Shown: positions 19,419-36,124 of the stretch, one piece after another
Layout: each line of letters begins with the position of its first letter
Numbering within the stretch: the first letter of the stretch is position 1
NCBI GenBank assembly: GCA_022843945.1
Contig: JALHMR010000015.1
Coordinates: forward strand, 49,302 to 113,301
Source: Rhodospirillaceae bacterium
Lineage (GTDB): Bacteria > Pseudomonadota > Alphaproteobacteria > CACIAM-22H2
DNA: 64,000 nucleotides
Direction: 5' to 3'
Notes under the pieces: model-generated
What the model was told of the DNA's origin: nothing
What the model saw: the letters and a program-made list of their open reading frames with translations, nothing else
Databases searched by the model: none
Made by a program: the position numbers and the translations under genes

Positions 19419-20291
19419 ATGACGGCTCCGTTAACGCCGTCGCGCGTGCTGGTGCGCCACGACCCGGTCGGCGAGCCGGCGCCGCTGGTCCTCGACAGCC
19501 CGCACAGCGGCATCGACTACCCGGCCGATTTCCGCTGCATCGTGCCGCTCTCGGTTCTGCGCATGGCCGAGGACACCCATATCGACGACGTCTTCTCGGC
19601 CGGACCGAGCCAGGGGGCGACCCTGATCGCGGCGCTGTTTCCGCGCAGCTACATCGACGTCAATCGCGAGGCCCTCGATATCGATGCGGACCTGCTGGAG
19701 GGCCCGTGGCCCGAGCCCCTGAAACCGGGCGAGAAGACGAGGCTCGGCATGGGGCTGATCCGCCGCCTGGCGCAGCCCGATATCGCCGTCTACGACCGCA
19801 AGCTGTCCATTGCCGAGGTCCAGGCTCGCATCGACCGCTATTACATGCCCTACCACGCGGAGCTCAAGGCGGCGCTCGACCGGGCCTATCAGCGCTTCGG
19901 CGGGGTCTGGCATCTCAACTGCCATTCCATGGGCTCGCAGGGCAGCGCCATGACTCCCGACGGCACCAAACGCCGGCCGGATTTCGTGCTCGGGGATCGT
20001 GACGGCACGACCTGTGGCGCGGCCTTCACCGAGACCGTCTATCGCTGGCTGAAGGGCCGCGGCCACCGGGTGACGATCAACGATCCCTACAAGGGTGTCG
20101 AGCTTGTCCGCCGCTATTCAGATCCCGCCCGGCGCCGGCACAGCCTGCAGATCGAGATCAATCGCGCTCTCTACATGGACGAGGAGACCCGCGCGCCGAA
20201 TCGCGGCTATGCGGCGCTGAAGGCCGAGATGTCGGCGCTGATCGCCCATCTTGCCGGGTGGACACGCGCGGCGCTGCATCCGTATGCTTGA
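19419..20291 (+). CDS. N-formylglutamate amidohydrolase family protein
   Basis: A 290-residue protein of the FGase family. It carries the LVLDSPHSGIDYP motif with the metal His, SYIDVNREALDID, NCHSMGS and a C-terminal LQIEINRALYMDE. In histidine breakdown the enzyme (HutG) releases formate from N-formylglutamate. There are no other hut genes here, so another N-formyl or peptide substrate is possible. Formate release would connect with the formate dehydrogenase encoded 19 kb away, but that link is speculative. Confidence 0.82.
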   Translation: MTAPLTPSRVLVRHDPVGEPAPLVLDSPHSGIDYPADFRCIVPLSVLRMAEDTHIDDVFSAGPSQGATLIAALFPRSYIDVNREALDIDADLLEGPWPEPLKPGEKTRLGMGLIRRLAQPDIAVYDRKLSIAEVQARIDRYYMPYHAELKAALDRAYQRFGGVWHLNCHSMGSQGSAMTPDGTKRRPDFVLGDRDGTTCGAAFTETVYRWLKGRGHRVTINDPYKGVELVRRYSDPARRRHSLQIEINRALYMDEETRAPNRGYAALKAEMSALIAHLAGWTRAALHPYA

Positions 20292-21182: not shown

Positions 21183-21817
21183 TCGGCGGTGGCACTCACC
21201 GGGCGCTTGTCGCGCTCCAGGATCTCGAAGGTGACCTTCGCCGTGCGCGGCAGGAGCGCGCCGCGCCAGCGATGCGGCCGGAAGGCGCTGATCGGCGTCA
21301 AGGCCAGCAGGTCGGCGCCCAGCGGGATGATCGGGCCGTGCGCCGAGAGGTTATAGGCGGTGCTGCCGGCCGGGGTGGAGACCAGCGCGCCGTCGCAGAT
21401 CATCTCCGGCAGGCGCTCGATGCCGTCGACCAGGATGCGCAGCTTGGCCGCCTGGCGCTGCTGGCGCAGCAGCGAGACCTCGTTGATGGCCAGCGCGCTG
21501 CGCTTGCCGCCGCGCGATGTGGTCACCGTCATGCGTAAGGGATGCAAGGTGACCTTCTGAGCCCGTTCGAGGCGCCGGGTCAGGCCCGCGACGCGATATT
21601 CGTTGAGCAGGAAGCCGACGCTGCCGCGATGCATGCCGAAGATCGGGATGTCACGGCCGAGGTAGCGATGCAGGGTCTGCAGCATCAGGCCGTCGCCGCC
21701 CAGCGCCACGATGATATCCGCCTTGTCCGGGCCCACCTGGCCATAGCGTTTGGCCAAGGTACGACGGGCGTCGCGGGCGGCCGGCGTCTCCGCCGCAACA
21801 AAGGCAAGTCGAATCAT
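21056..21817 (-). CDS. nadK: NAD kinase
   Basis: A 253-residue NAD+ kinase, forming NADP+ from NAD+ and ATP. The GGDG motif is in [10 protein letters not shown], the NE dipeptide in ALAINEVSL, and the active-site loop is [18 protein letters not shown]. Length suits the compact alphaproteobacterial form. It begins 36 nt downstream of the TSUP gene, so may be cotranscribed with moaA and that gene. Its 3' end overlaps the convergent hypothetical gene by 127 nt. Confidence 0.92.
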
Positions 21818-21853
21818 GGCGGGAGTATAGCGGTAGTCGGGTGCAGTGCCATC

Positions 21854-22597
21854 CTAGGCCTCGGTCAGCGCCCGGATGACCAGCGAGGAACCCGAGGCGA
21901 TCAGCATCAGGTAGAGCAGCCGCAAGAACTGCTCGCGCGACAGGCTGAGCGTGATCTTGTGCCCCAACCAGGTGCCGATCAGCATCGCCGGGGCGAAGGC
22001 CGCCGCCAGCCAGAGCAGCGAGCCGTCGGTGTAGACGCCGGCGATGAAGAAGAGGATCACCCGGGTGACGGTGGCGAAGCCGATGAGCGTGGTCACGGTC
22101 GCGCGGATCGCGTCCTTGTCGTCGACCCGGCGGCTCAGATACATGGCGTAGACCGGCCCGCCGCTGGCGAACATCGAGCTGAACATGCCGCCAAACAGGC
22201 CGAAGGGCAGGACCCAGGCCTGGTGGATCTTGTGGCGCACCGCGGGGCCGATCAGGCTGTAGAGGGCGTAGCTGAGACAGAAAAAGCCGAGGGCCAGCAT
22301 CATGTAGCGGGCTGGCAGGGTGAGCAGCAGGGCGACGCCGGCGAGGCTGCCGATGACCATCAGTGGCGCGAGGTAGGCGAGCTCGCGCTTGGCGATCTTG
22401 TCGCTTAGGCGGAATCCGCCGGTGAAGGCGGCGAACATGTCGAGCAGCGCCAGCGTCGGCACGATGTCGGCCACCGGCATGAGATGCGCGAGGATCGGTG
22501 CGGTAAGCAGGGCGGCGCCGAACCCGGCGAGGCCGAAGACGGTGTAGCCGACGATCAGGGTCGGAATCGCGACGGCGAGGGCGCCCCAGTCCAGCAC
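21854..22597 (-). CDS. TSUP/TauE-SafE-family membrane transporter
   Basis: A 247-residue membrane protein with about seven or eight hydrophobic helices and two family repeats (VFGLAGFGAALLTAPIL and GLFGGMFSSMFASGGPVYAMYL). TSUP proteins move sulfite, sulfonates or other anions across the inner membrane. The GTG at 22597 has GGGGG upstream and lies 23 nt past the moaA stop, so it is likely cotranscribed with moaA. The substrate is unknown; an oxyanion role tied to the Mo region is only a guess. Confidence 0.8.
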   Translation of the reverse strand: MLDWGALAVAIPTLIVGYTVFGLAGFGAALLTAPILAHLMPVADIVPTLALLDMFAAFTGGFRLSDKIAKRELAYLAPLMVIGSLAGVALLLTLPARYMMLALGFFCLSYALYSLIGPAVRHKIHQAWVLPFGLFGGMFSSMFASGGPVYAMYLSRRVDDKDAIRATVTTLIGFATVTRVILFFIAGVYTDGSLLWLAAAFAPAMLIGTWLGHKITLSLSREQFLRLLYLMLIASGSSLVIRALTEA

Positions 22598-22620
22598 GTG
22601 AAGGACCCCCGGGACCGGCG

Positions 22621-23643
22621 TCAGCCGCCGGTGACGCTCATGTGACGGGGGACCGCCGGGCCGGTGTGGCGGCGGTCGATGATGAAGTCGTGCCCTTTGG
22701 GCTTGCGCGCGATGGCCTCGCGGATCGCGCCGTCGAGCACGGTGTCGCTGTCGCTGGCTCGCAAGGGCGCCCGCAGGTCGGCCGCATCGTCCTGGCCCAG
22801 GCACATGTAGAGCGTGCCGGTGCAGGTCAGGCGTACCCGGTTGCAGGACTCGCAGAAGTTATGCGTCAGCGGCGTGATGAAGCCGAGACGGCCGCCGGTT
22901 TCCTTGACCGTCATGTAGCGCGCCGGACCACCGGTCCGGTAATCGCTCTCCTCGAGCGTCCACTTCTCCGACAACCGGCTGCGCACCAGCGACAGCGGCA
23001 GGTACTGGTCGAGACGGTTCGGTCCGATATCGCCCATCGGCATGACCTCGATGAAGGTCAGGTCGTGGCCTTCGTCGCCGCACCAGGCGACCATGCGGTC
23101 GAGTTCGTCGTCGTTCACCCCTTTGAGGGCGACGGCGTTGATCTTGACCGTGAGGCCCGCTTCCCTGGCGGCGCGCAGGCCATCGAGCACGACGTCGAGC
23201 TTGCCCCAGCGGGTGATGGCCGTGAATTTCGCCGGATCGAGCGTGTCGATCGAGACGTTGATCCGGCGCACGCCGGCCTCGCGCAGCTCGCCGGCATACT
23301 TGGCGAGCTGGCTGCCGTTGGTCGTCACCGTCAGCTCGTCGAGCGCGCCGCTCTTGATGTGGCGGCCGAGACCGCGGAACAAGCTCATGATATTCCGCCG
23401 CACCAGCGGCTCGCCGCCGGTCAGGCGCAGCTTGCGCACGCCGAGGCGCACGAAGGCCGAGCACAGGCGGTCGAGTTCCTCGAGCGACAGCACGTCGGCC
23501 TTGGGCAGGAAGGTCATGTCTTCCGACATGCAGTAGACGCAGCGGAAGTCGCAGCGGTCGGTGACCGATACGCGCAGGTACGAAATCCGCCGCTGGAAGG
23601 GGTCGATCAGCGGGGGAGCGGAGCTGGGTGCCGAAGCGTCCAT
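22621..23643 (-). CDS. moaA: GTP 3',8-cyclase, molybdenum cofactor biosynthesis
   Basis: A 340-residue radical SAM enzyme converting GTP to 3',8-cyclo-H2GTP with MoaC as partner, the first step of molybdopterin synthesis. The N-terminal radical SAM cluster is C-x3-C-x2-C ([11 protein letters not shown]), the C-terminal cluster motif is [14 protein letters not shown], and the chain ends in the Gly-Gly tail needed for activity (VTGG). The ModE-like palindrome at 23701-23726 lies 58 nt upstream. moaC, moaD and moaE are not in the window. Confidence 0.95.
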
Positions 23644-23700
23644 GCCTGAACCATAGCGCCCCTGCCGGGGAAAATCACCCCCTCGCGCGGTAGGGAAATA

Positions 23701-23726
23701 GCGTTATGCCCGACAGGACATAACGC
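23701..23726. promoter_or_regulatory. Predicted ModE-type operator
   Basis: A perfect inverted repeat: GCGTTATG, ten bases, CATAACGC. The core CGTTAT-n12-ATAACG is 24 nt long, the same length and end sequences as the E. coli modA operator as I recall it. ModE is the molybdate-sensing regulator. The site lies in the 128-nt gap between the divergent moaA (58 nt away) and ferredoxin-MBL gene (45 nt away), so it could control both. No modE gene is visible in this window. Confidence 0.7.
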
Positions 23727-23771
23727 CTATCCGGGGTGTGAAAGGCGACGTTCGGGCCTATATTCGAGCGT

Positions 23772-24656
23772 ATGGCCGATGCAGGACGCCGTCTCTCCGA
23801 CAACGCAGCCGGGGATTTTTTCGTCGATGCCACCTGCATCGACTGCGGAACCTGTCGCCGGGTGGCGCCGGACAGCTTCGCCGAGGGCCGGGGAGGCTCG
23901 CGCGTCCATCGCCAGCCGGACAGCGCCGGGCAGGTGGAACGCGCCCGCATGGCGCTCGTGGCCTGCCCGGTCGCCGCCATCGGCACCGAAGCTAGGCACG
24001 ACCTCCAGGACGCGCGCCGGGCGTTTCCCGAGCCGATCGAAGAAGATGTCTACTTCTGTGGGTGGGCTTCGCCGCGATCCTATGGCGCGGCGAGCTACCT
24101 GATCCGCCGACCTGCCGGCAACGTCCTCGTCGACTCGCCGCGCTTTGCCCGGCCGCTTGTCGAGCGCCTCGAAGCGCTCGGCGGTGTCTCGCTGATGGTC
24201 CTGAGCCACATCGATGACGTCGCCGACCACGAAGCGTTCGCCGCCCATTTCGGCTGCGCCCGGATCATTCACCGCGCGGATGCGCAAGGGACGCTGGCCG
24301 GGGCCGAGCGGCTGATCGACGGCAACGCGCCGGTGAGCCTCGCCGACGATCTGACGCTCATCCCGGTCCCCGGCCATACCGCAGGCTCGGTATGTCTTCT
24401 CTATCGAAACCACTTCCTGTTCACCGGCGATCATCTCGCCTGGGACACCGACCGGCGACGGCTGGAAGCCTGGCGCGACTACTGCTGGTTCGACTGGACC
24501 GCGCAGACCGCCTCGATGCGGCGGTTGCTCGACCAGCACTTCGAATGGGTGCTGCCGGGACATGGCGATGCGGTGAGCCTGCCGGCGGCAACGATGCGCG
24601 CCGCACTCGGCGACTGCGTCAGGCGTATGGAAGAGCCGGCGCGCCGCGCCGGCTGA
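23772..24656 (+). CDS. Ferredoxin-metallo-beta-lactamase fusion protein
   Basis: A 294-residue two-domain protein. Residues ~15-70 form a single [4Fe-4S] ferredoxin module: C22, C25, C28 (CIDCGTC) and C65 (ACPVAAIG). Residues 95-290 form an MBL-fold domain, but the usual HxHxDH reads HIDDVADH (H146, D148, D149, D152, H153), so one metal His is Asp; H202 (PGHTAG), D220 (TGDH) and H264 (PGHGD) are kept. Similar fusions occur in cyanobacteria and plants without an agreed function. It is divergent from moaA across the ModE-like site and convergent with the HdrA-like protein gene. Confidence 0.8.
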   Translation: MADAGRRLSDNAAGDFFVDATCIDCGTCRRVAPDSFAEGRGGSRVHRQPDSAGQVERARMALVACPVAAIGTEARHDLQDARRAFPEPIEEDVYFCGWASPRSYGAASYLIRRPAGNVLVDSPRFARPLVERLEALGGVSLMVLSHIDDVADHEAFAAHFGCARIIHRADAQGTLAGAERLIDGNAPVSLADDLTLIPVPGHTAGSVCLLYRNHFLFTGDHLAWDTDRRRLEAWRDYCWFDWTAQTASMRRLLDQHFEWVLPGHGDAVSLPAATMRAALGDCVRRMEEPARRAG

Positions 24657-24659
24657 CGT

Positions 24660-26726
24660 TCAGGAATCGAACTTGCGCGGCGGGCTGGCGGGCGGGCGCG
24701 CGGCTTCACGAACCGCCTGGGCGTCGCGCTCGCGCAGGTAATCCTCGGTCGTGCGCGGGTTCGGCCGCGCCGGGCCGGCGAAGGGATCGATGCCGCGCTC
24801 GTGTTGGATGACCAGCCGGCAGTCCTCGCACATGCGGATGCGCTCGGTGGCGCTGCCGTCCTGGAACATCCAGTGCTTGCCGGAAAGCTTCTCGATGACC
24901 TTGTCGATGGCGCCGCGCATGCCAAAGGCCTTGCCGCAGCGGATGCACTGGGCCGGCGCCTCTTCCTTGACGACGACCGGTGACTTTGCCGTTTCCGTGA
25001 GATTGAGCCGCGGCTTGAGGCCGATGACCTTCTCCGGGCAGGTCGCCTTGCACAGCCCGCACTGCACGCAGGCATCCTCGATGAAGCGCAGCATCGGCCA
25101 GTCGGGATTGTCGATCAGCGCGCCGGTCGGGCAGGCGCCGACGCAGGACAGGCAGAGCGTGCAGCCCTCGACGTTGACCTCGAGCGTGCCGAACGGCGAG
25201 CCCGGCGCCAGCGGCAGGATGTCGACCGGGGCCGGAGCCACCGAATGCAGATGCCGCAAGGCGAGCAGGGTGGTGCCGCGCTTGTTGCCGCGCGCCGTGA
25301 ACGAGCCGGCCCGGGGCGGCGTCGGCGCGGCACCGCCGTAGAGCTCGGCCTCGACGGCGTCCGGGTCGGCCTCGTCGATGACGCTGACCCGGCCGGCGCC
25401 GTAGCCCAGGCCGCTGAGCGCGGTCTCGGCGAGACCGATCTGCGTGGCCAGGCCGCCAAGCTCCTCGCGTTGGCGCGGATCGACGATCAGGCGGATCTGC
25501 GAGGCGCCGTAGGCGAGCGCCGTGGCGAAGAAATCGAAGCCGAGCTGGGTCACCGCCTGGACGCGGAACGGGATGACATTGGCCGGCAGGCCGCGGCCGT
25601 GGCGGGCGAGGGTGGAGAGCATCTCTTCGCCGTGGCCGTCATGGGCGAGCAGGACGGCAGCCGTGCCGCCGGCCTGGTTGTAGGTCGACAGGATGGTCTG
25701 CAGCCGCTCGTAGAGGAAGTCGCGCGGCGGCAGGGCATAGGTCGCCGCACCGGTCGGGCAGACCGCGGCGCAAGAGCCGCAGCCGGCGCAGACATAAGCG
25801 TCGATGGCGACATGATCGCCATTGGGCGTGATGGCGCCGGTCGGGCAGACCTCGAGGCAGCGCGTGCAGCCCGTCTTCTTGCTCCGGCTGTGGGCGCACA
25901 GGCCGGCATCGTAGGCGACGTAGGCCGGCTTCTCGAACTCGCCGGACATCTCCACCAGCTCGAACAGCGCCTTCTGCACGGCGACGGGGTCGCGCGGATC
26001 GGCCCGCAGGTAGCCGTCGCGTTTCTCGTGGGCGGTGAACAGCGGCGGGTCGCCGGTGATATCGAGGATCAGGTCGCAGGTCGACGAGGCGCCGTCACGC
26101 GGGTGCTCGAAGCGCAGCGCGCTGCGCGAGGAGGGCAGCGCGGGGGCGTAGTCGTTGACCACCACCTCGAAGGCGCCGAGATGACCCTTGGCGGCGGAGA
26201 CGGTGCCGCGGAACACCGGGACATCGGCCAGGCGCGGCGGCACGACGTCGGCGGGACGCGAGAGCAGGACCGTGCAGTCGAGCCGGTCGGTGATCTGGCG
26301 CGCGGCCTCCACGGCGACCTCGTCCTTGCCGTAGATCAGGGCGACGCCGGCCGATTTGAGGGTCAGGCTGGGCGTCGGCGGCACGTCGAGAGCGGCTTCG
26401 GCGAGAAGGGCGGCGATCTTGGGCAGGGCGCGCGCCCCCTCATCCGACCAGCCGGCATGCTCGCGGATGTTGACGAAGGTGAGATCGGTATCGAGTCCGA
26501 GCTCCGCCCGCACTTCGGCGAACAGTGGCGCTTCCTGGGTGCAGGCGACGACCACCGGCAGGCCGGCCTGCACCGCGCGCTCGAAATTGGCGAGCTGGCT
26601 GCGGCAGAGCAGCGTGTTGACGTCCATGCCGGGCTCCGCGCCGCAGGCGCGCGCCAGCGTCTTGCCGTCGATCGGCATCGTGCCGTTGCAGTCGCAGACG
26701 AGGACGGTCTTGCCGTTGATCTCCAT
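24660..26726 (-). CDS. Multi-cluster iron-sulfur protein with HdrA-like N-terminus
   Basis: A 688-residue protein. The N-terminal ~120 residues (CDCNGTM at 11-17, TLLCRSQLANFE, VACTQEAPLF, VNIREHAGW) resemble the N-terminal domain of heterodisulfide reductase subunit A. The following part looks like a decayed Rossmann domain without a GxGxxG motif. Then come paired [4Fe-4S] motifs (GCTRCLEVCP, CAGCGSCAAVCP), a spacer, another pair (GCTLCLSCVGACP, CVQCGLCKATCP) and C-terminal CxxC pairs (CIRCG, CEDC). It probably passes electrons in the formate/Mo region, but its partner is unknown. Similar genes occur beside formate dehydrogenase operons in other proteobacteria, as I recall. Confidence 0.75.
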   Translation of the reverse strand: MEINGKTVLVCDCNGTMPIDGKTLARACGAEPGMDVNTLLCRSQLANFERAVQAGLPVVVACTQEAPLFAEVRAELGLDTDLTFVNIREHAGWSDEGARALPKIAALLAEAALDVPPTPSLTLKSAGVALIYGKDEVAVEAARQITDRLDCTVLLSRPADVVPPRLADVPVFRGTVSAAKGHLGAFEVVVNDYAPALPSSRSALRFEHPRDGASSTCDLILDITGDPPLFTAHEKRDGYLRADPRDPVAVQKALFELVEMSGEFEKPAYVAYDAGLCAHSRSKKTGCTRCLEVCPTGAITPNGDHVAIDAYVCAGCGSCAAVCPTGAATYALPPRDFLYERLQTILSTYNQAGGTAAVLLAHDGHGEEMLSTLARHGRGLPANVIPFRVQAVTQLGFDFFATALAYGASQIRLIVDPRQREELGGLATQIGLAETALSGLGYGAGRVSVIDEADPDAVEAELYGGAAPTPPRAGSFTARGNKRGTTLLALRHLHSVAPAPVDILPLAPGSPFGTLEVNVEGCTLCLSCVGACPTGALIDNPDWPMLRFIEDACVQCGLCKATCPEKVIGLKPRLNLTETAKSPVVVKEEAPAQCIRCGKAFGMRGAIDKVIEKLSGKHWMFQDGSATERIRMCEDCRLVIQHERGIDPFAGPARPNPRTTEDYLRERDAQAVREAARPPASPPRKFDS

Positions 26727-26865
26727 GGCCTGACCATAGCGATGGGCGCGGCACTATTCACCCGTATTTTTGCCACGCTCGCCCCCAAGGGCGACCCAAG
26801 ACGCAGCGCGGGACGGCCGGTATACTCCGCCACCATGCGGGTGGACTATCGGCGGGTCGTGAACA

Positions 26866-28302
26866 ATGTCTAAGGCTGCTGCGGCTCTGCAGCTCGGGAT
26901 CGATCTGCACAAGCAGGGACGGGCCGACGAGGCTGCTGCGTATTACCAGGAAGCGCTGGCCGCCGAGCCCGGCAACGGACGCGCCGCCCACTACCTCGGA
27001 GTCATCGAGCTGCAGGCCGGCCGCCTCGATCGGGCGATCGAGCTGCTGGAGCGTGCCGTCGCCGCCGCTCCCGACCTGGTCGAGGCGCGCAACAATTTCG
27101 GCGTCGCCCTGCGCCAGCGCGGCCGGCTCGCGGAGGCCATTGCCGCCTTCGAGATTGCAGCGTCACGCAAGCCCGACCTCTTCGATGCTCAGAACAACCT
27201 CGCCTCCGCCCTGCTGGCCAGCGGCGAGATCGGTCATTCCTTTGCCGCGGCCGAGGCGGCGTACCGCCTCAATCCCCGGCACCCCGAGCCGCTGATCACG
27301 CTCGCCACCGTGCTGCTGATGCGGCGCGATGCGCCCGGCGCCATCGATTGGCTGGGCCGGCTGCTGGCCCTCGATCCCAACCATGCGCAAGGTCAGGCGC
27401 TGCACCGCATCGCGTTGAGCCGCATCGTCCAGCCCTGGCATTTCCCGATGATGGCCGACGGGCCGCGCAACGACGCCTACGAGGCGGCGATCCGCCGCGC
27501 CGTGACACCAGGCGCGCTGGTGCTCGATATCGGTACCGGGGCGGGGCTGCTGTCGATGATGTCGGCCCGCGCCGGGGCGCGCCAGGTCGTGACCTGCGAG
27601 ATGACCCCACCGGTCGCCGAGAAGGCGCGCCGCATCGTCGCGGCCAATGGCCTTGCCGATCGCATCACGGTGCATGGCAAGCGCTCGGACGAGCTCAAGA
27701 TCGGCGTCGAGCTGCCGGACAAAGCCGATGTGCTGGTCTCCGAGATCTTCGAAAGCGACCTGCTGGGCGAGGGCGTGCTGCCCAGCCTCGAGGACGCGCG
27801 GGCCCGCCTCGTCAAACCGGACGCCCGGATCATCCCGCAGGCCGCCTCGATCATGGTGGCGCTGGCCGGCGGCGAGGCGCTGGCGAAAATGGTGAGCATC
27901 GAGAGCGCCGCCGGTTTCGAGCTCTCGGCCTTCAACGAGTTCACGCCCGAGCGCCTGATCTTTGACGGCTCGCGCTTCGCCTTCGACTGGCTGTCGCAGC
28001 CACTGGCGGCGCTCGACTTCGATTTCCGCGAGACGCATTACCCGGCGTACGAGCGCGTGCTCTCGGCGAAGGTCACGCGCGGCGGCCTGTGCCTCGGCCT
28101 GGTGCAGTGGCTGCACGTGCAGCTCGACGAGCAGACGGAATTCGACAACAAGCCCGGCCGCCCGCCGGAGATCCCGTCGGGCTGGATGCATTCGCTCTAT
28201 ACGTTCGCCTCACCCGTGACGGTCGAGACGGGACAGACCCTGCGCTTCCTGGCTGGCCACAACCGGCACCTGCCGTACTTCCTGTTCGTCGACGTTGCCT
28301 GA
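26866..28302 (+). CDS. TPR-protein arginine methyltransferase fusion (PRMT7/9-like)
   Basis: A 478-residue protein. Residues 1 to ~170 are four to five TPR repeats (ALQLGIDLHKQGRADEAAAYY and similar). From ~210 a class I SAM-binding domain follows: VLDIGTGAGLLSMM, then the double-E loop SEIFESDLLGEGVLPS, close to PRMT7/9 sequences, and a THW-like loop (WLHVQLD). PRMTs methylate protein arginines; bacterial examples are uncommon and their targets are mostly unknown. It stands alone between the iron-sulfur protein gene (divergent) and the ABC importer (convergent). Confidence 0.8.
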   Translation: MSKAAAALQLGIDLHKQGRADEAAAYYQEALAAEPGNGRAAHYLGVIELQAGRLDRAIELLERAVAAAPDLVEARNNFGVALRQRGRLAEAIAAFEIAASRKPDLFDAQNNLASALLASGEIGHSFAAAEAAYRLNPRHPEPLITLATVLLMRRDAPGAIDWLGRLLALDPNHAQGQALHRIALSRIVQPWHFPMMADGPRNDAYEAAIRRAVTPGALVLDIGTGAGLLSMMSARAGARQVVTCEMTPPVAEKARRIVAANGLADRITVHGKRSDELKIGVELPDKADVLVSEIFESDLLGEGVLPSLEDARARLVKPDARIIPQAASIMVALAGGEALAKMVSIESAAGFELSAFNEFTPERLIFDGSRFAFDWLSQPLAALDFDFRETHYPAYERVLSAKVTRGGLCLGLVQWLHVQLDEQTEFDNKPGRPPEIPSGWMHSLYTFASPVTVETGQTLRFLAGHNRHLPYFLFVDVA

Positions 28303-28305
28303 CGG

Positions 28306-29094
28306 TTAGGGGCTGGCGGCGAAGGAGGGCAGGCAGACGCGCCGGCGCCCGGCCCCCATATCCACTTCCTGGATGCTGACCTCGACGCCGTAGGCGGCGC
28401 GCAGGTTGCCAGGCGTTACGGTCTCGGCCGGTGTGCCCAGCGCGGCGATGTGCCCGTCATGGAGGATGGCCACCCGGTCGGCGCAGAGGAAGGCGTGATC
28501 GGGATCGTGGGTCGAGAACAGGATGCCGATGCCGCTGCGCGCCAAGCCGCGGATGCGCTCGAGCACGCGTACCTGGTTGCCGAAATCGAGGCTGGCCGTC
28601 GGCTCATCCATGATCAGCAGCGGGGCCTCTTGTGCGAGGGCGCGGGCGATCAGGGCGAGCTGCCGTTCGCCGCCGCTGATCCGCGTATAGATCGCCTCGG
28701 CGAGATGGGCGATGCCGAGTGTCTCCAGCGTCTCGTGCGCCACGCGGCGATCCTTGTCGGAGGGCGCCGCGAACAGGCCGATATGCGCCGTGCGGCCCAT
28801 CAGCACCACGTCGGCGACGGTGAAGGGGAAATAGCCGCTATGGGCTTGCGGCACGTAGCCGATGCGCCGCGCCACGGTGCGGCGGGCGAGATCGCGCAGA
28901 TCGCTGCCGTCGATCCGCACCCGCCCGCCATGCGGCCTGAGCAGGCCGAGCAGGGTGCGGAACAGGGTCGTCTTGCCGCCGCCGTTGGGCCCCAGCACGC
29001 AGAGCACCTCGCCGGTTTTGAGCGCGAATGTCGCGCCGCGGCCGACGGTGCGGCCGGGATAGCCGAAAGCCAGCGTTTCGGCGGACAGCGTCAT
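28306..29094 (-). CDS. ABC transporter ATP-binding protein, FecE/MolC type
   Basis: A 262-residue ATPase of the iron-siderophore/cobalamin/molybdate importer class. Walker A is GPNGGGKTT, the signature ISGGERQLALIARALAQ and the Walker B LLIMDEPTASLD, with the FSTHDPDHA switch. It overlaps the permease gene stop by 4 nt, so the two are coupled. The substrate is discussed under the binding protein. Confidence 0.88.
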   Translation of the reverse strand: MTLSAETLAFGYPGRTVGRGATFALKTGEVLCVLGPNGGGKTTLFRTLLGLLRPHGGRVRIDGSDLRDLARRTVARRIGYVPQAHSGYFPFTVADVVLMGRTAHIGLFAAPSDKDRRVAHETLETLGIAHLAEAIYTRISGGERQLALIARALAQEAPLLIMDEPTASLDFGNQVRVLERIRGLARSGIGILFSTHDPDHAFLCADRVAILHDGHIAALGTPAETVTPGNLRAAYGVEVSIQEVDMGAGRRRVCLPSFAASP

Positions 29095-30104
29095 TGCCAG
29101 CCCCGCCGCACGGTGGCCAGCAGCCAGACGAAGAACGGCGTACCGACCAGGGCCGTCAGCACGCCGAGCGGCACCTCGATGGCGGCGACGGTGCGGGCCA
29201 GTGTGTCGACCAGCAGCATGAAGCCGCCGCCGAGCAGCGCCGAGGCCGGCAGCAGGCGGCCGAAATCGGGTCCGACCAGCAGCCGCGCGAAATGCGGGAT
29301 CAGCAATCCGACCCAGCCGATGATGCCGGCGATCGAGACGACCGAGGCGGTCATCAGCGTCGCCGCGGCGACGACCGCGGCGCGCGTCGGGCCGGTGGAG
29401 ACGCCCAGTGCCTTGGCTTCCTCATCGCCCAGCGACAGGAGGTTGATCCGCCAGCGCAGCAGGATCAGCGGCACCAGCCCGACGAGCGTCAGCGGGGCGG
29501 CGGCCGTGAGATCGGCCGGCGCAGCGCCGGCCAGGCTGCCGAGCAGCCAGAAGGTGATGGCCGGGAGCTGGTTGTAGGGATCGGCCACGTATTTGAGCAG
29601 CGCCACGCCGGCGCCGAACAGCGCGCCGATGGCGACACCGGCGAGGACGAGCACCAGGATCGGATCGTGGCCGCGCACCGCCGCAGCGACGCCGTAGACG
29701 ACGGCGACCGCGCCGAGGCCGCCAACGAAGGACAGGCCCTGAATGGCCATCACCGGCAGCGAGAGGAAGATGCCGATCACCGCACCCAGGGCGGCTCCCG
29801 AGGAGACGCCGAGGATGTCCGGCGAGACCAGCGGGTTGCGGAACAGGCCCTGATAGGCGGCACCGGCCGCCGCCAGCGCCGCCCCGACCAGGATCGCCGC
29901 TGCGATACGCGGGCCCCGGATGCGCAGCACCACGGTCTCGATGGTGTCGGAGAGGCCGTGTGTGCCGCCGGTCAGCTTGGCCCACAAGACCGCCAGCGCC
30001 TCCACCGGCGCCACGGGAAACTTGCCGATGGCGAAGGCGGCAATCACCGCCCCGGCGAGCGCGACCAGCGGCAGAAGCGTGGCGGCGATGCGGCGGCCGC
30101 TCAT
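29091..30104 (-). CDS. ABC transporter permease, FecCD/BtuC type
   Basis: A 337-residue inner-membrane permease with about ten hydrophobic helices. Family signatures include LRIPR-like VLRIRGPRIAAAILVGAALAAAG, NPLVSPDILGVSSGA and IGWVGLLIPHFARLLVG. It works with the ATPase encoded 3' and the binding protein encoded 5', separated by 12 nt. This is the BtuCD/HI1471 (MolB) architecture. Confidence 0.9.
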   Translation of the reverse strand: MSGRRIAATLLPLVALAGAVIAAFAIGKFPVAPVEALAVLWAKLTGGTHGLSDTIETVVLRIRGPRIAAAILVGAALAAAGAAYQGLFRNPLVSPDILGVSSGAALGAVIGIFLSLPVMAIQGLSFVGGLGAVAVVYGVAAAVRGHDPILVLVLAGVAIGALFGAGVALLKYVADPYNQLPAITFWLLGSLAGAAPADLTAAAPLTLVGLVPLILLRWRINLLSLGDEEAKALGVSTGPTRAAVVAAATLMTASVVSIAGIIGWVGLLIPHFARLLVGPDFGRLLPASALLGGGFMLLVDTLARTVAAIEVPLGVLTALVGTPFFVWLLATVRRGWQ

Positions 30105-30116
30105 CGCGGCCTCCGG

Positions 30117-31169
30117 TCAGCGCGCAAGGCTGGGCCCGAGCAACTGGGCGATCTGCGCGTCGGTTGGCGTGCGATGATAGAAGCGGCGATAGAACTCGCG
30201 CGTCTCGCTGGTGAGGTCGCCGGCATAGAGGTCCGGGTACAGCACCTTGGCCAGCCAATGCAAGCCGATGAGACGATTCATCGCCGGGGGAAAGTCGATC
30301 CAGCCGAAGGGCAGGCGCGGCGCGAGGTAGACGCGGCCCTCGCGCACGGCGCGGACGCCGCGCCAGTTGACGTCTTCGCGGGCGAGGCGGTGGAAGTTCT
30401 CGTCGAGGGTCACGATCGTGTCCGGGTTCCAGGCGAGAATCTGCTCTAATGACACGGTCGCGATGCCGCCGCGACCCAGCGCCTCGGCGGCGACGTTGAC
30501 CGCGCCGACGCGCTCCAGGCTCTCGACCGTGATCGAGCCGCCCAGCGCCGTATCGATGCCGCGGGGCCCACGCCCGTAATAGACGCGCGGGCGGCGGGCG
30601 GCGGGGCGCTTGGCGAGGACTTCATCGATCGTGGCGAGCGTGCCGCGCACATAGGCGGCGAGCTCGCTGGCAACCGCTGGTGCCGCGAGCAGCTCGCCCA
30701 TCCGGGTGATGGCGGTGTCCATGGCGCCGAAGGCACCGTCGATCAGCACGTAAGGCACGCCGGTCTGCTCCTGCACCCGGTCGGCGAGCGAGACGTAGGT
30801 CGGGTTGATCGTGCCGTAATCGAAGATCACATCGGGCTTCGCCGTCAGGATCACCTCGACATTGGCCGTGTTGCCGCGCCCGGTGAGCCGGCCGAGCTCC
30901 GGCAGGTCGGCATATTTCTGCGGCACGAAGTCGCGCTCCGCCGGATGGAAGGTCCGGCTCCAGCCGAGCAGCGTATCGGGAGCCAGCGCGAAGAGCAGGA
31001 TGGTGGCCGGCGGCCCGGCGGCGAAGACACGGCGCACCGTGTCGGGAACCGCGACCCGTCGTCCCGCTGAATCGACAAAAACGCGGGCCGCGCGGGCCGG
31101 CCGAATCAGCGCTGGTGCGGCGAGCACGGCACCGGCAGCAACTGCGAAACGGCGGCGACTTAGCACCAC
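30117..31169 (-). CDS. ABC transporter periplasmic binding protein, BtuF/MolA type
   Basis: A 350-residue class III binding protein. The N-terminus has a TAT-like signal (SRRRFAV, then a hydrophobic stretch ending PARAAR near residue 28). The mature chain has the family pattern VDSAGRRVAVPDTVRRVFAAGPP and two lobes joined by a long helix. Ligands of this class are siderophores, heme, cobalamin or, in MolA, molybdate/tungstate. Flanking Mo/W genes favour molybdate or tungstate; the sequence alone does not prove it. Not preceded by a visible ModE-like site; a REP element lies upstream. Confidence 0.82.
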   Translation of the reverse strand: MVLSRRRFAVAAGAVLAAPALIRPARAARVFVDSAGRRVAVPDTVRRVFAAGPPATILLFALAPDTLLGWSRTFHPAERDFVPQKYADLPELGRLTGRGNTANVEVILTAKPDVIFDYGTINPTYVSLADRVQEQTGVPYVLIDGAFGAMDTAITRMGELLAAPAVASELAAYVRGTLATIDEVLAKRPAARRPRVYYGRGPRGIDTALGGSITVESLERVGAVNVAAEALGRGGIATVSLEQILAWNPDTIVTLDENFHRLAREDVNWRGVRAVREGRVYLAPRLPFGWIDFPPAMNRLIGLHWLAKVLYPDLYAGDLTSETREFYRRFYHRTPTDAQIAQLLGPSLAR

Positions 31170-31198
31170 AAATCCGCTCCTGGGGATCTAAAACAGAT

Positions 31199-31276
31199 CG
31201 TCATGCCGGCGAAAGCCGGCATCCAGGGCCACGAGAACCGCGCTTGCCCTGGACCCCGGCTTTCGCCGGGGTGACG
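31199..31276. repeat. REP-type double-hairpin repeat
   Basis: Two perfect hairpins with tetraloops: ATGCCGGC-GAAA-GCCGGCAT (31203-31222) and CCCCGGC-TTTC-GCCGGGG (31254-31271), joined by a further inverted pair CCAGGG/CCCTGG. Ends are CGTCATG and GTGACG. A related single hairpin is at 45086-45105. This is a common dispersed intergenic repeat form in alphaproteobacteria. It sits between the binding-protein gene and the Mop gene and may act as a transcription barrier. Confidence 0.8.
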
Positions 31277-31316
31277 CCAATAGTCATCACGACGGACGGT
31301 CGTGAATGACATGGCG

Positions 31317-31520
31317 TCATTTCCCGATGATGACGTCCGAGGCCTTGATGATGGCGTAGGCCTTGTCGCCCTTCTTGAGCTTGAGGTCGGTGGCGGCCTC
31401 GTTGGTGATCGAGGCGGTGACGATGGCGCCGCCGATGTCCATCTTCACATGCGCCGTCGTGGCACCGCGCACCACCGAGGTGACCTTGCCCTTGAGGACG
31501 TTGCGTGCGCTGAGCTTCAT
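31317..31520 (-). CDS. Mop-domain molybdate/tungstate-binding protein (molbindin)
   Basis: A 67-residue protein that is exactly one Mop/TOBE domain (SARNVLKGKVTSVVRGATTAHV, ITNEAATDL, YAIIKASDVIIGK). Such molbindins assemble into hexamers that store molybdate or tungstate in the cytoplasm. It ends the operon tupB-tupC-tupA-modA-like-mop, with a 10-nt gap after the ModA-like gene. GGAGACGGAG precedes the ATG. Confidence 0.9.
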   Translation of the reverse strand: MKLSARNVLKGKVTSVVRGATTAHVKMDIGGAIVTASITNEAATDLKLKKGDKAYAIIKASDVIIGK

Positions 31521-31530
31521 CTCCGTCTCC

Positions 31531-32331
31531 TTACATGGGCAGCGCGACGGGTGTGAATCCGTGGCGCGCCAGGATCTGTTGCCCGGCGGGGGACAGAATA
31601 TACATCGCCAGCTGGCCAGCGTCCGGGCGTGCGCCCTTCAGCACGGCCATGCCGTAATCGGCACCCACCGCCAGAGCTTCGGGGATCGAGACGATCTGCA
31701 GTCCCGGGGCGTCCTTGGCCGCGAGGATGGCGTTGGTGCAGTAGGTGATGAAGAGATCGGCCTTCTTCTCGGCCATCAGCCAGCCATAGACCGTGCGCCC
31801 GGCCGGCGCCTGCGGGGAGTCGGCGGCTCCAACCAGCTTGAGCGCCTTGGCGTCGAGCGTCTTGAAGCTGCCCGGCTTGAGCTTCTCCGCCTTTTCGAAC
31901 ATCACCCACGTGTAGTCGCCCGAGGGATCGTTCTTCGGTGTCGAGCTACCGAGCCGGGTCGCCGGGTCGAGCATCCGGTCGAGCAGGGTTGCCGGGGTCA
32001 CGGAATGCCCTGGCTGGGCGAGGGCGCAGAGCTGGTTGCGGACGAACAGCGTCACCGGCCCGGCCTTGCCGGCCTTCATCAACGTCGTCGGATGCTGCAG
32101 ATCGGCGGAGGCGAAGACCTCCGCCGGCTCGCCTTTCTCGATACGCTCGCGCAGCAGGCCCGAGGCGCCGAAGGTCGCCGCGACCTTCGGCCCCTGGTCG
32201 CGGGTGAACGCCTCGCTGACCTCGGTGAGGGCGGCACGCAGGCTGCCGGCCGCATACAGCCGGACCGGCTCCTGAGCGTTCGCCAGCGCTGGCGCCATCG
32301 TCAGGGCGACGGCCAGCAGAACGCGACGCAT
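31531..32331 (-). CDS. ModA-like molybdate ABC transporter binding protein
   Basis: A 266-residue periplasmic binding protein. The signal peptide ends near ANAQ (residue ~20). Family features are LYAAGSLRAALTEV, FGASGLLRERIEKGEPAEVFASADLQHP and a late YGMAVLKGA. No modB or modC lies nearby, so it either shares the TupBC translocator or is an extra sensor or donor. I chose the ATG at 32331, 4 nt after the tupA stop. An upstream extension of the frame overlaps tupA and is rejected. Confidence 0.85.
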   Translation of the reverse strand: MRRVLLAVALTMAPALANAQEPVRLYAAGSLRAALTEVSEAFTRDQGPKVAATFGASGLLRERIEKGEPAEVFASADLQHPTTLMKAGKAGPVTLFVRNQLCALAQPGHSVTPATLLDRMLDPATRLGSSTPKNDPSGDYTWVMFEKAEKLKPGSFKTLDAKALKLVGAADSPQAPAGRTVYGWLMAEKKADLFITYCTNAILAAKDAPGLQIVSIPEALAVGADYGMAVLKGARPDAGQLAMYILSPAGQQILARHGFTPVALPM

Positions 32332-32335
32332 CGCC

Positions 32336-33172
32336 TCACGTCCCCGCCTTGCGGAAGTTGGGGAAGAAGAGGGATTCGCCGCCGATCTTGTAGTCGGCGA
32401 TGGCCTTCTGGCCTTCCGGCGAGGTGATCCAGTCGATGAAGGTCTGGCCAAGATCCTTCTTCACATGCGCGTGCTTGGCCGGGTTGACCAGCATGATGCC
32501 GTACTGGTTGAACAGGCGCTGGTCGCCCTCGACCACGATGGTCAGGTCGGCGCGGTTCTTGAAGCTCAGCCAGGTGGCGCGGTCCGCCAGGACATAGGCG
32601 TTCATGCCGGCGGCGGTGTTGAGCGTCGGGCCCATGCCCTGGCCGAGCTCGCGGTACCACGTGCCCTTGTCCTTCTCGAGGTCGATGGCGGCGACGCGCC
32701 ACAGGCGCAGCTCGGCGGCGTGCGTGCCGCTCTTGTCGCCGCGCGAGGCGAAGGGCGCCTTGGCCTCGGCGATCTTCTTGAGCGAGCCGGCGATGTCCTT
32801 CGAGCCGGCGACCTTCGCCGGATCCGACTTCGGCCCGATCAGGACGAAGTCGTTGTACATGACCTCGCGCCGCTCGGGGCTGAAGCCGTCGGCCACGAAC
32901 TTCTCCTCGGCCACCTTGTCATGCACGAACACGACATCGGCATCGCCGCGCCGGCCGGTGTCGAGCGCCTGGCCCGTGCCTTGCGCCACGACCCGCACGT
33001 CGATGCCGGTCTTGGCCTTGAAGATCGGCAGGATATGGCCGAACAGGCCCGAATCCTGGGTCGAGGTGGTCGACGAGACGACGATGAACTTGTCCTGCGC
33101 CTGCGCGGGCGACAGGGCCAGCGTTACGGCTAGCGAGGCGGCGACAAGCAAGGATCGACGGGTAAACTTCAT
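32336..33172 (-). CDS. tupA: Tungstate ABC transporter binding protein
   Basis: A 278-residue periplasmic protein. The signal ends near PAQAQD (about residue 25). The TupA signature VSSTTSTQDSGLF lies at the mature N-terminus, with GTGQALDTGRRGDADVVFVH and a late NPAKHAHVKKD segment. TupA binds tungstate with high selectivity over molybdate in characterised homologues. The ATG at 33172 overlaps the tupC stop by 4 nt. GGGAGG lies upstream. Confidence 0.9.
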   Translation of the reverse strand: MKFTRRSLLVAASLAVTLALSPAQAQDKFIVVSSTTSTQDSGLFGHILPIFKAKTGIDVRVVAQGTGQALDTGRRGDADVVFVHDKVAEEKFVADGFSPERREVMYNDFVLIGPKSDPAKVAGSKDIAGSLKKIAEAKAPFASRGDKSGTHAAELRLWRVAAIDLEKDKGTWYRELGQGMGPTLNTAAGMNAYVLADRATWLSFKNRADLTIVVEGDQRLFNQYGIMLVNPAKHAHVKKDLGQTFIDWITSPEGQKAIADYKIGGESLFFPNFRKAGT

Positions 33173-33891
33173 AGCGATTCCTCCCTTAGAAAAGCAGCGG
33201 CTTCCGGCGTGGCGGGCGCGCGGAAAAACAGGTCGGCCGGGCTGCCCTCGACGAGGCGCCCGCGGTCGAGGAACAGGATCTCGTCGGCCAGGCGGCGCGC
33301 CTGGGCGAGATTGTGGGTGGTCATGACGATCTTGGTGCCGGCCTCGTGGATGGCGCGGATGATCGCCTCGACGGCGCGCGCGGCCGCCGGATCGAGACTG
33401 GCGGTCGGCTCGTCGAGGAACAGCACCTCGGGCTGCAGCGCCCAGGCACGGGCCAGCGCCACGCGCTGCTGCTCGCCGCCCGACATCGAGCGGGCGGGGC
33501 GGTCGGCCAGGGCCAGCAGGCCGACGCGGTCGAGCATGGCCCGGGCGCGCTCGGTGCGCTCCGCCTTCGCCATGCCGGCAAGCTTGAGACCGTAGGCGAC
33601 ATTGGCCAGTGCCGAGCGGCGCAGCATGACCGGGCGCTGGAAGACCATGGCCTGGCGGCGCATCGGATCGCCGGCGAAGGCGCCGGCCCAGCGGATCGTG
33701 CCGGAGGTCGGCGCCAGCAGGCCGTGGCACAGGCGCAGGGTCAGGCTCTTGCCCGCCCCGTTGGGTCCGAGGATCACCGTGCGCGAGCCGGCGCTCAGCG
33801 TGACCGTCAGCTCGTTGACGAGCGGCGTGCCGTTGATGGCGTAGCCGACGCCATCGAGAACCAGCGGGAGGAGAGTGGCGCCGGCGTGCAT
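33169..33891 (-). CDS. tupC: Tungstate ABC transporter ATP-binding protein
   Basis: A 240-residue ATPase. Walker A is GPNGAGKS, the signature MSGGEQQRVALARA, and the Walker B LFLDEPTASLD. No C-terminal TOBE domain is present, consistent with TupC rather than ModC. The ATG at 33891 shares a base with the tupB stop (TGATG). The reading frame also runs upstream to 34218 as a shadow of tupB. Confidence 0.9.
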   Translation of the reverse strand: MHAGATLLPLVLDGVGYAINGTPLVNELTVTLSAGSRTVILGPNGAGKSLTLRLCHGLLAPTSGTIRWAGAFAGDPMRRQAMVFQRPVMLRRSALANVAYGLKLAGMAKAERTERARAMLDRVGLLALADRPARSMSGGEQQRVALARAWALQPEVLFLDEPTASLDPAAARAVEAIIRAIHEAGTKIVMTTHNLAQARRLADEILFLDRGRLVEGSPADLFFRAPATPEAAAFLREESL

Positions 33892-34595
33892 CAGCCGAGC
33901 CTCCTCTGGGCGACTTCCTTGATCGTATAGGCGGCGGCGTTCGCGGCGAGCACCAGGGTGATCAGGATCAGGCCGAGGCCCAGGGCCAGCGGCAAGTCGC
34001 CCTTGCTGGTCTCGAGCGCGATGGCGGTGGTCATGACGCGCGTGACGCCGTCGATGTTGCCGCCGACCATGATCACCGCCCCGACCTCGGCGGCGGCCCG
34101 GCCGAAGCCGGCAAGGACGACGGTCACCAGAGAAAAGCGCGTGTCCCAGAGCAGCGTCCAGACGGCGCGGCGCGGCGGCGCGCCGAGCGAGCGCAGCTGC
34201 TCCTGGTATTCCGTCCACGCATCCTCGACCACCTGGCGGGCGAGGGCGGCGACGATCGGCGTGATCAGGATCGCCTGGGCGATGATCATGGCCGGCGGCG
34301 TGAACAGCAGGCCGAGCGGGCCGAGCGGGCCGCTGCGCGACAGCAGGAGATAGACGAGCAGGCCGACCACGACCGGCGGCAGGCCCATCAGGGCGTTGAG
34401 CACCACGATCATGCCGCGCCGGCCGGGGAAGCGGCCGAGTGCCACGGCGGCGCCCAGCGGCAGGCCCAGCACCGTGGCGATGGCCACCGCGGCCAGGCTG
34501 ACCTTTACGCTGAGCGCAACGATGCCCATGAGAGCCGGGTCGAACCCGGCCACCATCCGCAACGCAGCTCCGAACGCGGCGCTCAGGTCATACAA
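33891..34595 (-). CDS. tupB: Tungstate ABC transporter permease
   Basis: A 234-residue permease with about five or six helices. It contains VGGNIDGVTRVMTTAIALETSKGDLPLAL, close to TupB/WtpB-like permeases, and the EAA-like loop SLGAPPRRAVWTLLWD. It is the first gene of the operon reading toward 31317. A symmetric candidate operator lies just upstream (34607-34643). Confidence 0.88.
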   Translation of the reverse strand: MYDLSAAFGAALRMVAGFDPALMGIVALSVKVSLAAVAIATVLGLPLGAAVALGRFPGRRGMIVVLNALMGLPPVVVGLLVYLLLSRSGPLGPLGLLFTPPAMIIAQAILITPIVAALARQVVEDAWTEYQEQLRSLGAPPRRAVWTLLWDTRFSLVTVVLAGFGRAAAEVGAVIMVGGNIDGVTRVMTTAIALETSKGDLPLALGLGLILITLVLAANAAAYTIKEVAQRRLG

Positions 34596-34606
34596 GCCCG
34601 TTTCCT

Positions 34607-34643
34607 CTGCAAATTTATGCGCCTATAGGCGTTTCTTATGCAG
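34607..34643. promoter_or_regulatory. Candidate operator upstream of tupB
   Basis: The perfect 12-nt palindrome CGCCTATAGGCG (34620-34631) sits centrally between CTGCA (34607-34611) and TGCAG (34639-34643), giving a nested symmetric site 12 nt upstream of the tupB start. It differs from the ModE-like site near moaA. A role in metal-dependent control of tup is plausible from position only. Confidence 0.4.
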
Positions 34644-34825
34644 GAGATTCGGTACCACGGAAATTACGCACTGGCACCGGAAATCGGCGTGTGGGCGCGG
34701 CCGTGGCAAAAACATGTCAGGGCGGGGATTTGTGGGCCGTTTAAGCCGACGTTAACGATTCGGGCGTATAACCAAAATTGTGAAAACGCAGTGGGCTGTC
34801 AGCCACTTACGTTAAAGGCGTCGCG

Positions 34826-34936
34826 ATGTCCTATACCCCGATCCTCGCCGCTGTTGCTGTCGCCCTGCTGATCTACGTGCCGTTGCTCGTCCGTTACGGC
34901 GAGGTTCCCGCCCTGCTGCGTCGCCGCCGCCGCTAA
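34826..34936 (+). CDS. Predicted small membrane protein, 36 aa
   Basis: A short frame from ATG 34826 to TAA 34934-34936. It encodes MSYTPILAAV, a ~20-residue hydrophobic helix (AVALLIYVPLLV), then RYGEVPALL and a run of five Arg at the C-terminus. This is a plausible single-helix inner-membrane protein with a cytoplasmic basic tail. The Shine-Dalgarno is weak (AAAGGCG). Codon usage (GCC, CTG, CTC) is like neighbouring genes. It lies in the 659-nt gap between tupB and fdhD, upstream of a large hairpin. Function unknown. Confidence 0.5.
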   Translation: MSYTPILAAVAVALLIYVPLLVRYGEVPALLRRRRR

Positions 34937-34968
34937 CGCGGCCGCTCGCGCTTTCGCTTCCGGACTCC

Positions 34969-35056
34969 GGGGGCGGGGCCAAGCAACGGCGATTTGCGTC
35001 GGCGCAGGGGTAATTTGCCGACGGAAGCGGGGCCCGCCGTTGCTTGTGCCGCCCCC
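34969..35056. repeat. Large inverted repeat / RNA hairpin
   Basis: Left arm GGGGGCGG-GGCC-AAGCAACGGCG (34969-34991) pairs with 35035-35056, giving 8 and 11 perfect pairs around a small internal loop. Inside, CGTCGGC (34997-35003) pairs with GCCGACG (35017-35023). The structure follows the 36-aa ORF and lies 199 nt before fdhD. It could be a terminator (no clear U-tract), an mRNA processing site or a structured RNA. In the rest of the gap (35057-35254) I see only AT-richer DNA compatible with an fdhD promoter. Confidence 0.6.
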
Positions 35057-35254
35057 AGTTCGTTCCTCCCAAGCTTGAGCATTGATCGAAGGCGTCTTGC
35101 GCCGTCCGTTCGCTTGGATTTTATCGGTCGTTAAAACCGCCCGGTTGCAATCGTAGTTTTGCGCAGTTCTCGCCTGCCTTCGTTTGGTTAACGTGAGGGC
35201 GGGTTTCGGGCCCCTGGCTTGCGTGTTTGAGCGGCGTGGTCGCATAGTCCGCCC

Positions 35255-36124
35255 ATGAAGGAATTCGCCGTCACGCCCAAGCCCGACGATCCGCGTCTGA
35301 CGCAACGCGTCAGCGGCCAGGACGAGACGGGCCAGCTGATCGAGACCTCGGTGGTCGTCGAGCGGCCGCTGACCCTGTTCCTCAACGGGCAGGAGATCGT
35401 CACCATGATGACGATCGGCGACTACCCCGAGTATCTGGCGGTCGGCTACCTGATCAATCAGAACATGCTGCGCGCCGATGACACGATCACCGGCATCGAT
35501 GTCGACATGGAGATCGACACCGTCGTCGTGCGCACCGAGCGCAAGACCGACTTCGAGGAGAAGCTCAAGAAGAAGACCCTGACCTCGGGCTGCGCGCAGG
35601 GCACCGTGTTCGGCGACCTGATGGAGAAGTTCGAGGAGATCGCGCTGCCCAAGGATGCGGTGCTCAGGACCTCGTGGCTCTACCGGCTGACCAAGAAGAT
35701 CAACACCGCGCCCAGCCTCTATCTCGAGGCCGGCGCCATCCACGGCTGCGTGCTGTGCGAAGAGGACCGGCCGCTGGTCTACATGGAAGACGTCGGCCGC
35801 CACAACGCCATCGACAAGATCGCCGGCTACATGTTCATGGAAGGCGTGAAGCCGGAGGGCAAGCTGTTCTATACGACCGGCCGCCTGACCTCGGAGATGG
35901 TGATCAAGACGGTGCAGATGCGCATTCCCATTCTCGTCTCGCGCTCGGGCTTCACCGCCTGGGGCGTGGAACTGGCGCGCAAGGCGAACCTCACCCTGAT
36001 CGGCCGCGCCAAGGGCAGCCGCTTCATCGTGCTCTCGGGTGCCGAGCGCATCGTCTACGACGCCGACGCGCGCACCGTGGTCGAGGAGGGGAGGCAGCGC
36101 AAAGCGAGTCTCGTCGATGACTGA
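35255..36124 (+). CDS. fdhD: Formate dehydrogenase accessory sulfurtransferase FdhD
   Basis: A 289-residue FdhD homologue. In E. coli FdhD passes sulfur from IscS to the bis-MGD cofactor of formate dehydrogenase through two loop Cys (CxxC). Here the loop reads [10 protein letters not shown]113 is present but the second Cys is Gly. Other family motifs are [31 protein letters not shown] and [13 protein letters not shown]. It is the first gene of a coupled run with mobA, DUF3305 and DUF3306, facing the fdh operon. Confidence 0.92.

Follow-up and report, generated by a model that had tools for sequence, protein, structure and literature searches.

A predicted ModE operator preceding moaA in a Rhodospirillaceae genome that encodes a short ModE-family protein

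In E. coli the regulator ModE ties the transcription of cofactor genes, moa included, to sufficient molybdate, as set out in PMC10845959. The E. coli ModE operators located before modA and moaA are, like the site considered here, 24-bp palindromes with CG.TAT.. arms, and the K-12 modA operator CGTTATATTGTCGCCTACATAACG has the same length and the same six bases at each end, so that the likeness to this operator claimed in the original prediction holds. ModE sites are reportedly the subject of a paper by Studholme and Pau from 2003, and a Mo-box at moaA is already a known kind of site. The MopA and MopB regulators of Rhodobacter capsulatus are full-length proteins. These alphaproteobacterial regulators are also molybdate-responsive and are associated with a Mo-box, PMC7294313 dealing with repression of anfA as compared to the Mo-box at moaA described below.

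A predicted Mo-box in the upstream region of moaA

The window, by which we mean the whole 64-kb stretch of DNA that was analysed, carries an exact CGTTAT-N12-ATAACG at positions 23702 to 23725, its only exact-arm copy, and the flanking G and C at positions 23701 and 23726 pair as well; a symmetric palindrome of 24 nt, as had been described, is thus present. It is contained in the 128-bp gap which separates the start of moaA (position 23643, minus strand) from the start of a divergent gene specifying a ferredoxin-MBL fusion (position 23772, plus strand). The features of this region are as follows.

23702..23725, no strand assigned: Mo-box, predicted ModE operator CGTTATGCCCGACAGGACATAACG, with exact arms and 23.9 bits, kept before moaA
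22621..23643, minus strand: moaA, GTP 3',8-cyclase of molybdenum cofactor synthesis (TIGR02666, 358.8 bits, over the cut-off)
21854..22597, minus strand: TauE/SafE (TSUP) permease gene (PF01925), 23 bp behind moaA by gene call and in the same order in G022
23772..24656, plus strand: ferredoxin-MBL fusion gene (PF13370, Fer4_13, 62.2 bits; MBL-fold domains just under the Pfam cut-offs)
24660..26726, minus strand: 4Fe-4S protein gene with Fer4-type domains, located directly before moaA in relatives (neighbour in G022 and others)

The CGTTAT and ATAACG arms alone are not specific genome-wide, being found with up to two mismatches at 46 places in the whole genome compared to 23 for the reversed control, while 3 of 100 shuffles of the window contained at least two arm matches with up to two mismatches. 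A motif, CGTTATATCC-N4-GGATATAACG, was defined over arms and interior, drawing on the arms scan of the genome and on regions upstream of moaA in relatives, and the window box shows three mismatches to it. With up to three mismatches this motif was found at 24 places in 15 of the 23 family genomes, as compared to none in the 23 for the reversed control. Gene context, taken from gene calls and matches, was obtained for 21 of the 24 places, of which 14 precede modA or modB, six precede moaA and one precedes a TSUP permease gene; across the family the motif thus precedes chiefly modA and moaA. The ModE gene and modA are separated by it in G004 and G006, and the present genome possesses two further boxes, one before modAB and one before a second TSUP permease gene. 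The 24-bp palindrome is in agreement with the motif shared by ModE operators, known or predicted.

Among 385 sampled genomes of the class, the motif with up to two mismatches was found at 17 places in 15 genomes, the control yielding a single place. Fourteen of these places are outside the family and 13 of the latter had a locus to inspect. Eight of the 13 adjoin molybdenum genes: modA or modB in four cases (L174, L177, L179 and L180), modE together with modA in two (L176 and L178) and mop in one (L173), and in L170 (G168:C266:17457-17480), from another family of the class, a box with two mismatches is located between fdhD and moaDE as read by eye. At the other five places (L168, L169, L171, L172 and L175), likewise with two mismatches, no recognised molybdenum genes adjoin the motif; L168, L171 and L172 have aldehyde-dehydrogenase-like genes nearby, as judged by eye.

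For a weight matrix, 20 boxes adjoining mod genes served as the training set, 14 from the family (one being the modA box of the present genome) and six from other genomes of the class, with no moaA or TSUP box among them. By this matrix the window box at moaA scores 23.9 bits, which is 14 bits over any other window position, the runner-up being 9.9 bits at position 19633 within reading frame 19419-20291; in 60 Markov-random windows of 64 kb the highest score was 16.1 bits, with a mean of 6.7. The E. coli K-12 operators of modA and moaA obtain 18.1 and 21.5 bits, respectively, under the same matrix, each being the top score in its 5.5-kb region, and both are exceeded by the window box. The possibility that the palindrome is the site of another regulator, or has arisen by chance, draws on the excess of arm matches over the control (46 against 23, at up to two mismatches) and on the recurrence of exact arms at C17:105155, but is very unlikely given that the interior of the window box fits as well as its arms (23.9 bits) and that the site is kept at the orthologous position.

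The palindrome at C17:105155-105178 (G000, the present genome; L002 and L023) is a perfect one of 24 bp with exact CGTTAT and ATAACG arms, which directly precedes a transporter binding-protein-like gene and has an AT-rich interior unlike the motif.

Further molybdenum genes are located at positions 28306 to 34595 of the window, where tungstate-type ABC genes, a modA-like gene, a stand-alone Mop gene and a FecCD-type importer are encountered; the gene order tup-like, modA-like, mop and importer binding protein recurs in four genomes of g7, a sister genus.

31317-31520: stand-alone Mop protein, 67 aa (76.5 bits)

A role for this stand-alone Mop as a partner of ModE is speculation. The weight matrix detected no box in the 28306-34595 cluster. 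Two arms with two mismatches at positions 34750 to 34773, approximately 155 bp upstream of the tupB reading frame as listed, were considered as a second box and rejected, since this place scores -1.7 bits by the weight matrix despite having just two arm mismatches. The earlier statement that tupB, the FecCD importer and the fdh genes are not preceded by a second copy is in agreement with these results, as is the proposed division of the molybdenum genes into control groups: nowhere else in the window is a box-like score reached, and by sequence the other molybdenum genes of the window therefore fall into a different control group.

Conservation of the box and probable late arrival of the ferredoxin-MBL gene

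A search of the 23 family genomes identified moaA in 21 (24 matches; none in G004 and G014), and 22 of these matches were examined as loci, L044, which has no N-terminus, and L048, at the position already covered by L046, being left out. Eleven of the 22 loci carry a box of at least 18.8 bits within 200 bp of the moaA start, and in each case none of 1000 shuffles was as good; the 11 loci without a box are three of g2, that of g3, both g4 copies, that of g5, three of g6, and G016. When the loci are divided according to the presence of ModE, genomes with ModE contribute 15 loci, 9 of them with the box, and those in which ModE was not detected contribute 7, 2 of them with the box. No moaA box was found in the ModE-containing genomes G006, G007, G009, G010 and G016, and ModE was not found in G022 and G012 despite their moaA box, G012 being 74% complete and G022 93% complete in 670 contigs. 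In G022 a mere remnant of the box, with six mismatches, is located at modA. The lack of a detected ModE in G022, together with this remnant, points either to a loss in progress or to an assembly gap.

G022 is the only other genome of the same genus, and its moaA is preceded by the box at the same distance while the ferredoxin-MBL gene is absent; a single contig shows the 4Fe-4S gene, then the box, then moaA. Alignment of the upstream regions of G000 and G022 revealed conservation of the box, of a GGGGGTGATTT block and of GCTAT preceding the start, with patchy similarity beyond the box. The 4Fe-4S gene adjoins moaA in at least ten other family loci. As the box is present at moaA in G022, which is without the ferredoxin-MBL gene, it is ascribed to moaA, the likely owner. 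The central claim of the original prediction, a ModE-type operator before moaA, is supported by the matrix score, by the presence of a ModE-family gene in this genome and by conservation of the site at moaA in relatives, which were also the outcomes sought in the weight-matrix scan that had been proposed.

The protein family of the ferredoxin-MBL gene is common elsewhere, with 7978 of 8000 candidates scored passing an E value of 1e-20, and its nearest proteins (P0001 to P0003) are 92, 88 and 81% identical, but the gene is present in just one of the 23 family genomes, being absent in the other 22, and in two of the 385 sampled genomes of the class; the divergent moaA/ferredoxin-MBL pair is not kept in any sampled relative. 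For comparison, 81 other loci were assembled, consisting of the best 80 of 577 from the genome scan, which include Acidobacteria, Cyanobacteria and Rhodospirillales, and L087 of G245. Relatives of moaA, modA or modE were found at none of these 81 loci (tblastn at E up to 1e-8, within at most 4 kb on either side), and the best occurrence of the motif near them has five mismatches, at one locus. No link of the ferredoxin-MBL gene to a Mo-box or to molybdenum genes was thus observed in more than one lineage. Since the 4Fe-4S gene is joined directly to moaA in G022 and in at least ten family loci, the ferredoxin-MBL gene is probably an insertion that separated the 4Fe-4S gene from the box and is younger than the latter, an event which parsimony would place in this lineage.

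It had been proposed that the ferredoxin-MBL fusion belongs to the molybdenum regulon, a claim which finds support in position alone and not in the distribution of the gene (one of 23 family genomes, molybdenum relatives at none of 81 loci, and the box in G022 without the gene). A joint operator, whereby ModE bound at the box controls both moaA and the divergent gene and the latter thereby entered the molybdenum regulon, is on balance rather unlikely. From the centre of the box to the ferredoxin-MBL start codon there are 58.5 bp, over which an activator could act, and with nearest proteins of 92, 88 and 81% identity the gene may have become established in relatives outside the sample; however, the box at moaA appears older than the ferredoxin-MBL gene, and the 81 other loci are without a nearby moaA, modA or modE relative or a good box. 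If the gene was inserted beside a pre-existing box, any response of it to ModE would be incidental.

The ModE-family protein and its predicted action on moaA

The absence of a modE homologue had been named as an outcome that would speak against a ModE operator, and a homologue is present. The ModE-family protein of this genome matches TIGR00637 with 79 bits (E 9.9e-22), which is below the curated cut-off of 98.5, and is approximately 125 aa in length with the start codon of our choice. The reading frame ends 18 residues past the match to the DNA-binding domain, leaving no room for molybdate-binding domains, and the C-terminal molbindin domains of full-length ModE were not found; this ModE apparently consists of the DNA-binding domain only. 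Thirteen of 15 ModE gene calls in relatives are of 107 to 138 aa, another gene having been picked in the remaining two. The closest solved sequence is 2ijl, a chain of 135 aa (105.1 bits), E. coli ModE also being among the nearest. With regard to co-occurrence in the 23 family genomes, 13 contain both ModE (above 60 bits) and any match to the motif, three contain ModE only, two the box only and five neither (Fisher 0.026, with kinship ignored).

The match of the box to the sites of E. coli, and to those located before molybdate-transport genes in relatives, suggests that it is likely bound by this short-form ModE. We assign a probability of roughly 0.8 to the reading that the palindrome represents a ModE operator and that a ModE-family protein most likely controls moaA and probably the TSUP gene in the same operon. 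Two -10 hexamers are predicted, as follows.

23650..23655, minus strand: predicted -10 of moaA (TATGGT), assigned by eye within a block that G022 shares in part, approximately 7 bp from the start codon
23759..23764, plus strand: predicted -10 of the ferredoxin-MBL gene (TATATT), by eye only

A sigma-70 consensus scan of positions 23560 to 23860 found no promoter, recovering neither of the two hexamers assigned by eye. Each of the divergent starts at 23643 and 23772 is within approximately 8 bp of such a -10-like hexamer, a proximity from which leaderless transcripts are predicted, and are likely, for both moaA and the ferredoxin-MBL gene.

These predicted transcripts bear on a third explanation, in which the palindrome functions as RNA in the form of a hairpin, attenuator or riboswitch. 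Its fold of -16.8 kcal/mol has a z of -2.06, with 3 of 200 shuffles as good, and one terminator-like site at positions 23697 to 23678 adjoins the box on the moaA strand (shuffle mean 0.2). Any DNA palindrome folds, however; the same motif also precedes modA genes and adjoins modE in G004 and G006, and the palindrome would be outside the predicted leaderless transcripts. In a comparison of positions 21500 to 35500 with Rfam nothing reached a curated score, the four matches with E up to 1 all being far below it, and the Moco riboswitch model gave no match even at E up to 1. A function as RNA is therefore extremely improbable.

Returning to the ModE operator, the direction of control may differ between sister genera. 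In G000 and G022 the centre of the box is 70 and 68 bp, respectively, before the moaA start and upstream of the conserved promoter block, and it ends 19 bp short of this block, so that ModE would, judging from position, activate moaA in this genus. In nine g7 genomes the box centre is just 15 to 43 bp before the moaA start and the TATAT half overlaps the -10 assigned by eye; with the box covering the predicted -10, ModE would be expected to repress moaA there. That ModE bound at the window box is instead a repressor of moaA, or a mere insulator of two promoters, is a real if minority possibility: the modA boxes and the moaA boxes of g7 are close to the start as repression predicts, while the window box and its G022 counterpart, 70 and 68 bp before the moaA start and upstream of the promoter block, argue against it.

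The moaA transcript would probably include the TSUP permease gene located 23 bp behind moaA, the two genes probably forming one operon. The second TSUP permease gene of this genome (G000 C21:63581-64453; L004, L211) lies between transposase-like genes, with a two-mismatch box directly before its start, and a homologue in G389, where a mop gene is boxed as well, carries a box with three mismatches. On this basis the C21 permease may be regarded as a candidate molybdate-linked permease. Homologues of the C21 type were found in 8 of the 385 class genomes, and the fewest motif mismatches within 150 bp of the TSUP start, with the number of 2000 shuffles as good in brackets, were as follows: G000 2 (0), G389 3 (0), G078 4 (0), G082 5 (1), G199 7 (30), G367 8 (80), G010 9 (234) and G136 11 (1975). 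The TSUP loci of G078 and G082 adjoin arsR-like genes and their palindromes may therefore be other sites. Five further TSUP loci, from four more genomes in a phylum search of 398, had no box, the best match anywhere in the locus having 7 to 9 mismatches, and three of the five (L239, L240 and L242) are beside arsenic-type genes as judged by eye. The notion that C21-type TSUP permeases are generally controlled by ModE is thereby weakened, the other homologues being without a clear box and some located in arsenic-type loci.

A broader scheme would have a ModE reduced to its DNA-binding domain run an E. coli-type molybdenum regulon, with a switched sign on moaA (activated from -70 in this genus, repressed from the core promoter in a sister genus), a foreign ferredoxin-MBL gene as well as the TSUP genes following moaA and following a box of their own captured into it, and the TSUP proteins as candidate molybdate carriers; taken in its entirety this scheme is doubtful.

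Comparison with known systems

The present analysis provides a concrete predicted molybdenum regulon for this bacterial family, comprising moaA with its TSUP permease gene, modAB and the second TSUP permease gene. The defined operators make molybdate sensing by a ModE of the DNA-binding domain only a testable question. It also illustrates that inferring regulation from an intergenic site common to two genes can be misleading, since the operator probably predates one of the genes flanking it.

As compared to E. coli, in which ModE is 262 aa in length, the ModE of this genome is approximately 125 aa, and the centre of the moaA box is 70 bp before the start codon as opposed to 187 bp in E. coli. 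The interior of the box tends to CC-N4-GG here, unlike that of the E. coli operators. The protein 2ijl, a chain from Agrobacterium named a molybdenum-binding transcriptional repressor, is a short form like the present ModE. Single-domain ModE proteins of Desulfovibrio and Desulfotalea are likewise cut to the DNA-binding domain, and PMC545781 states the same puzzle of molybdenum sensing for that of Desulfovibrio; the site predicted there for both, CGGTCACG-N14-CGTGACCG, is unlike the E. coli-type box found here. A search of the open-licence literature, noisy in that 'ModE' matches 'mode', retrieved no prior description of a regulon of DNA-domain-only ModE in alphaproteobacteria. What is particular to the system described here is the combination of a regulator apparently reduced to its DNA-binding domain with an E. 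coli-type box, two positions of the moaA box in sister genera, and a probably late-arriving gene beside the operator.
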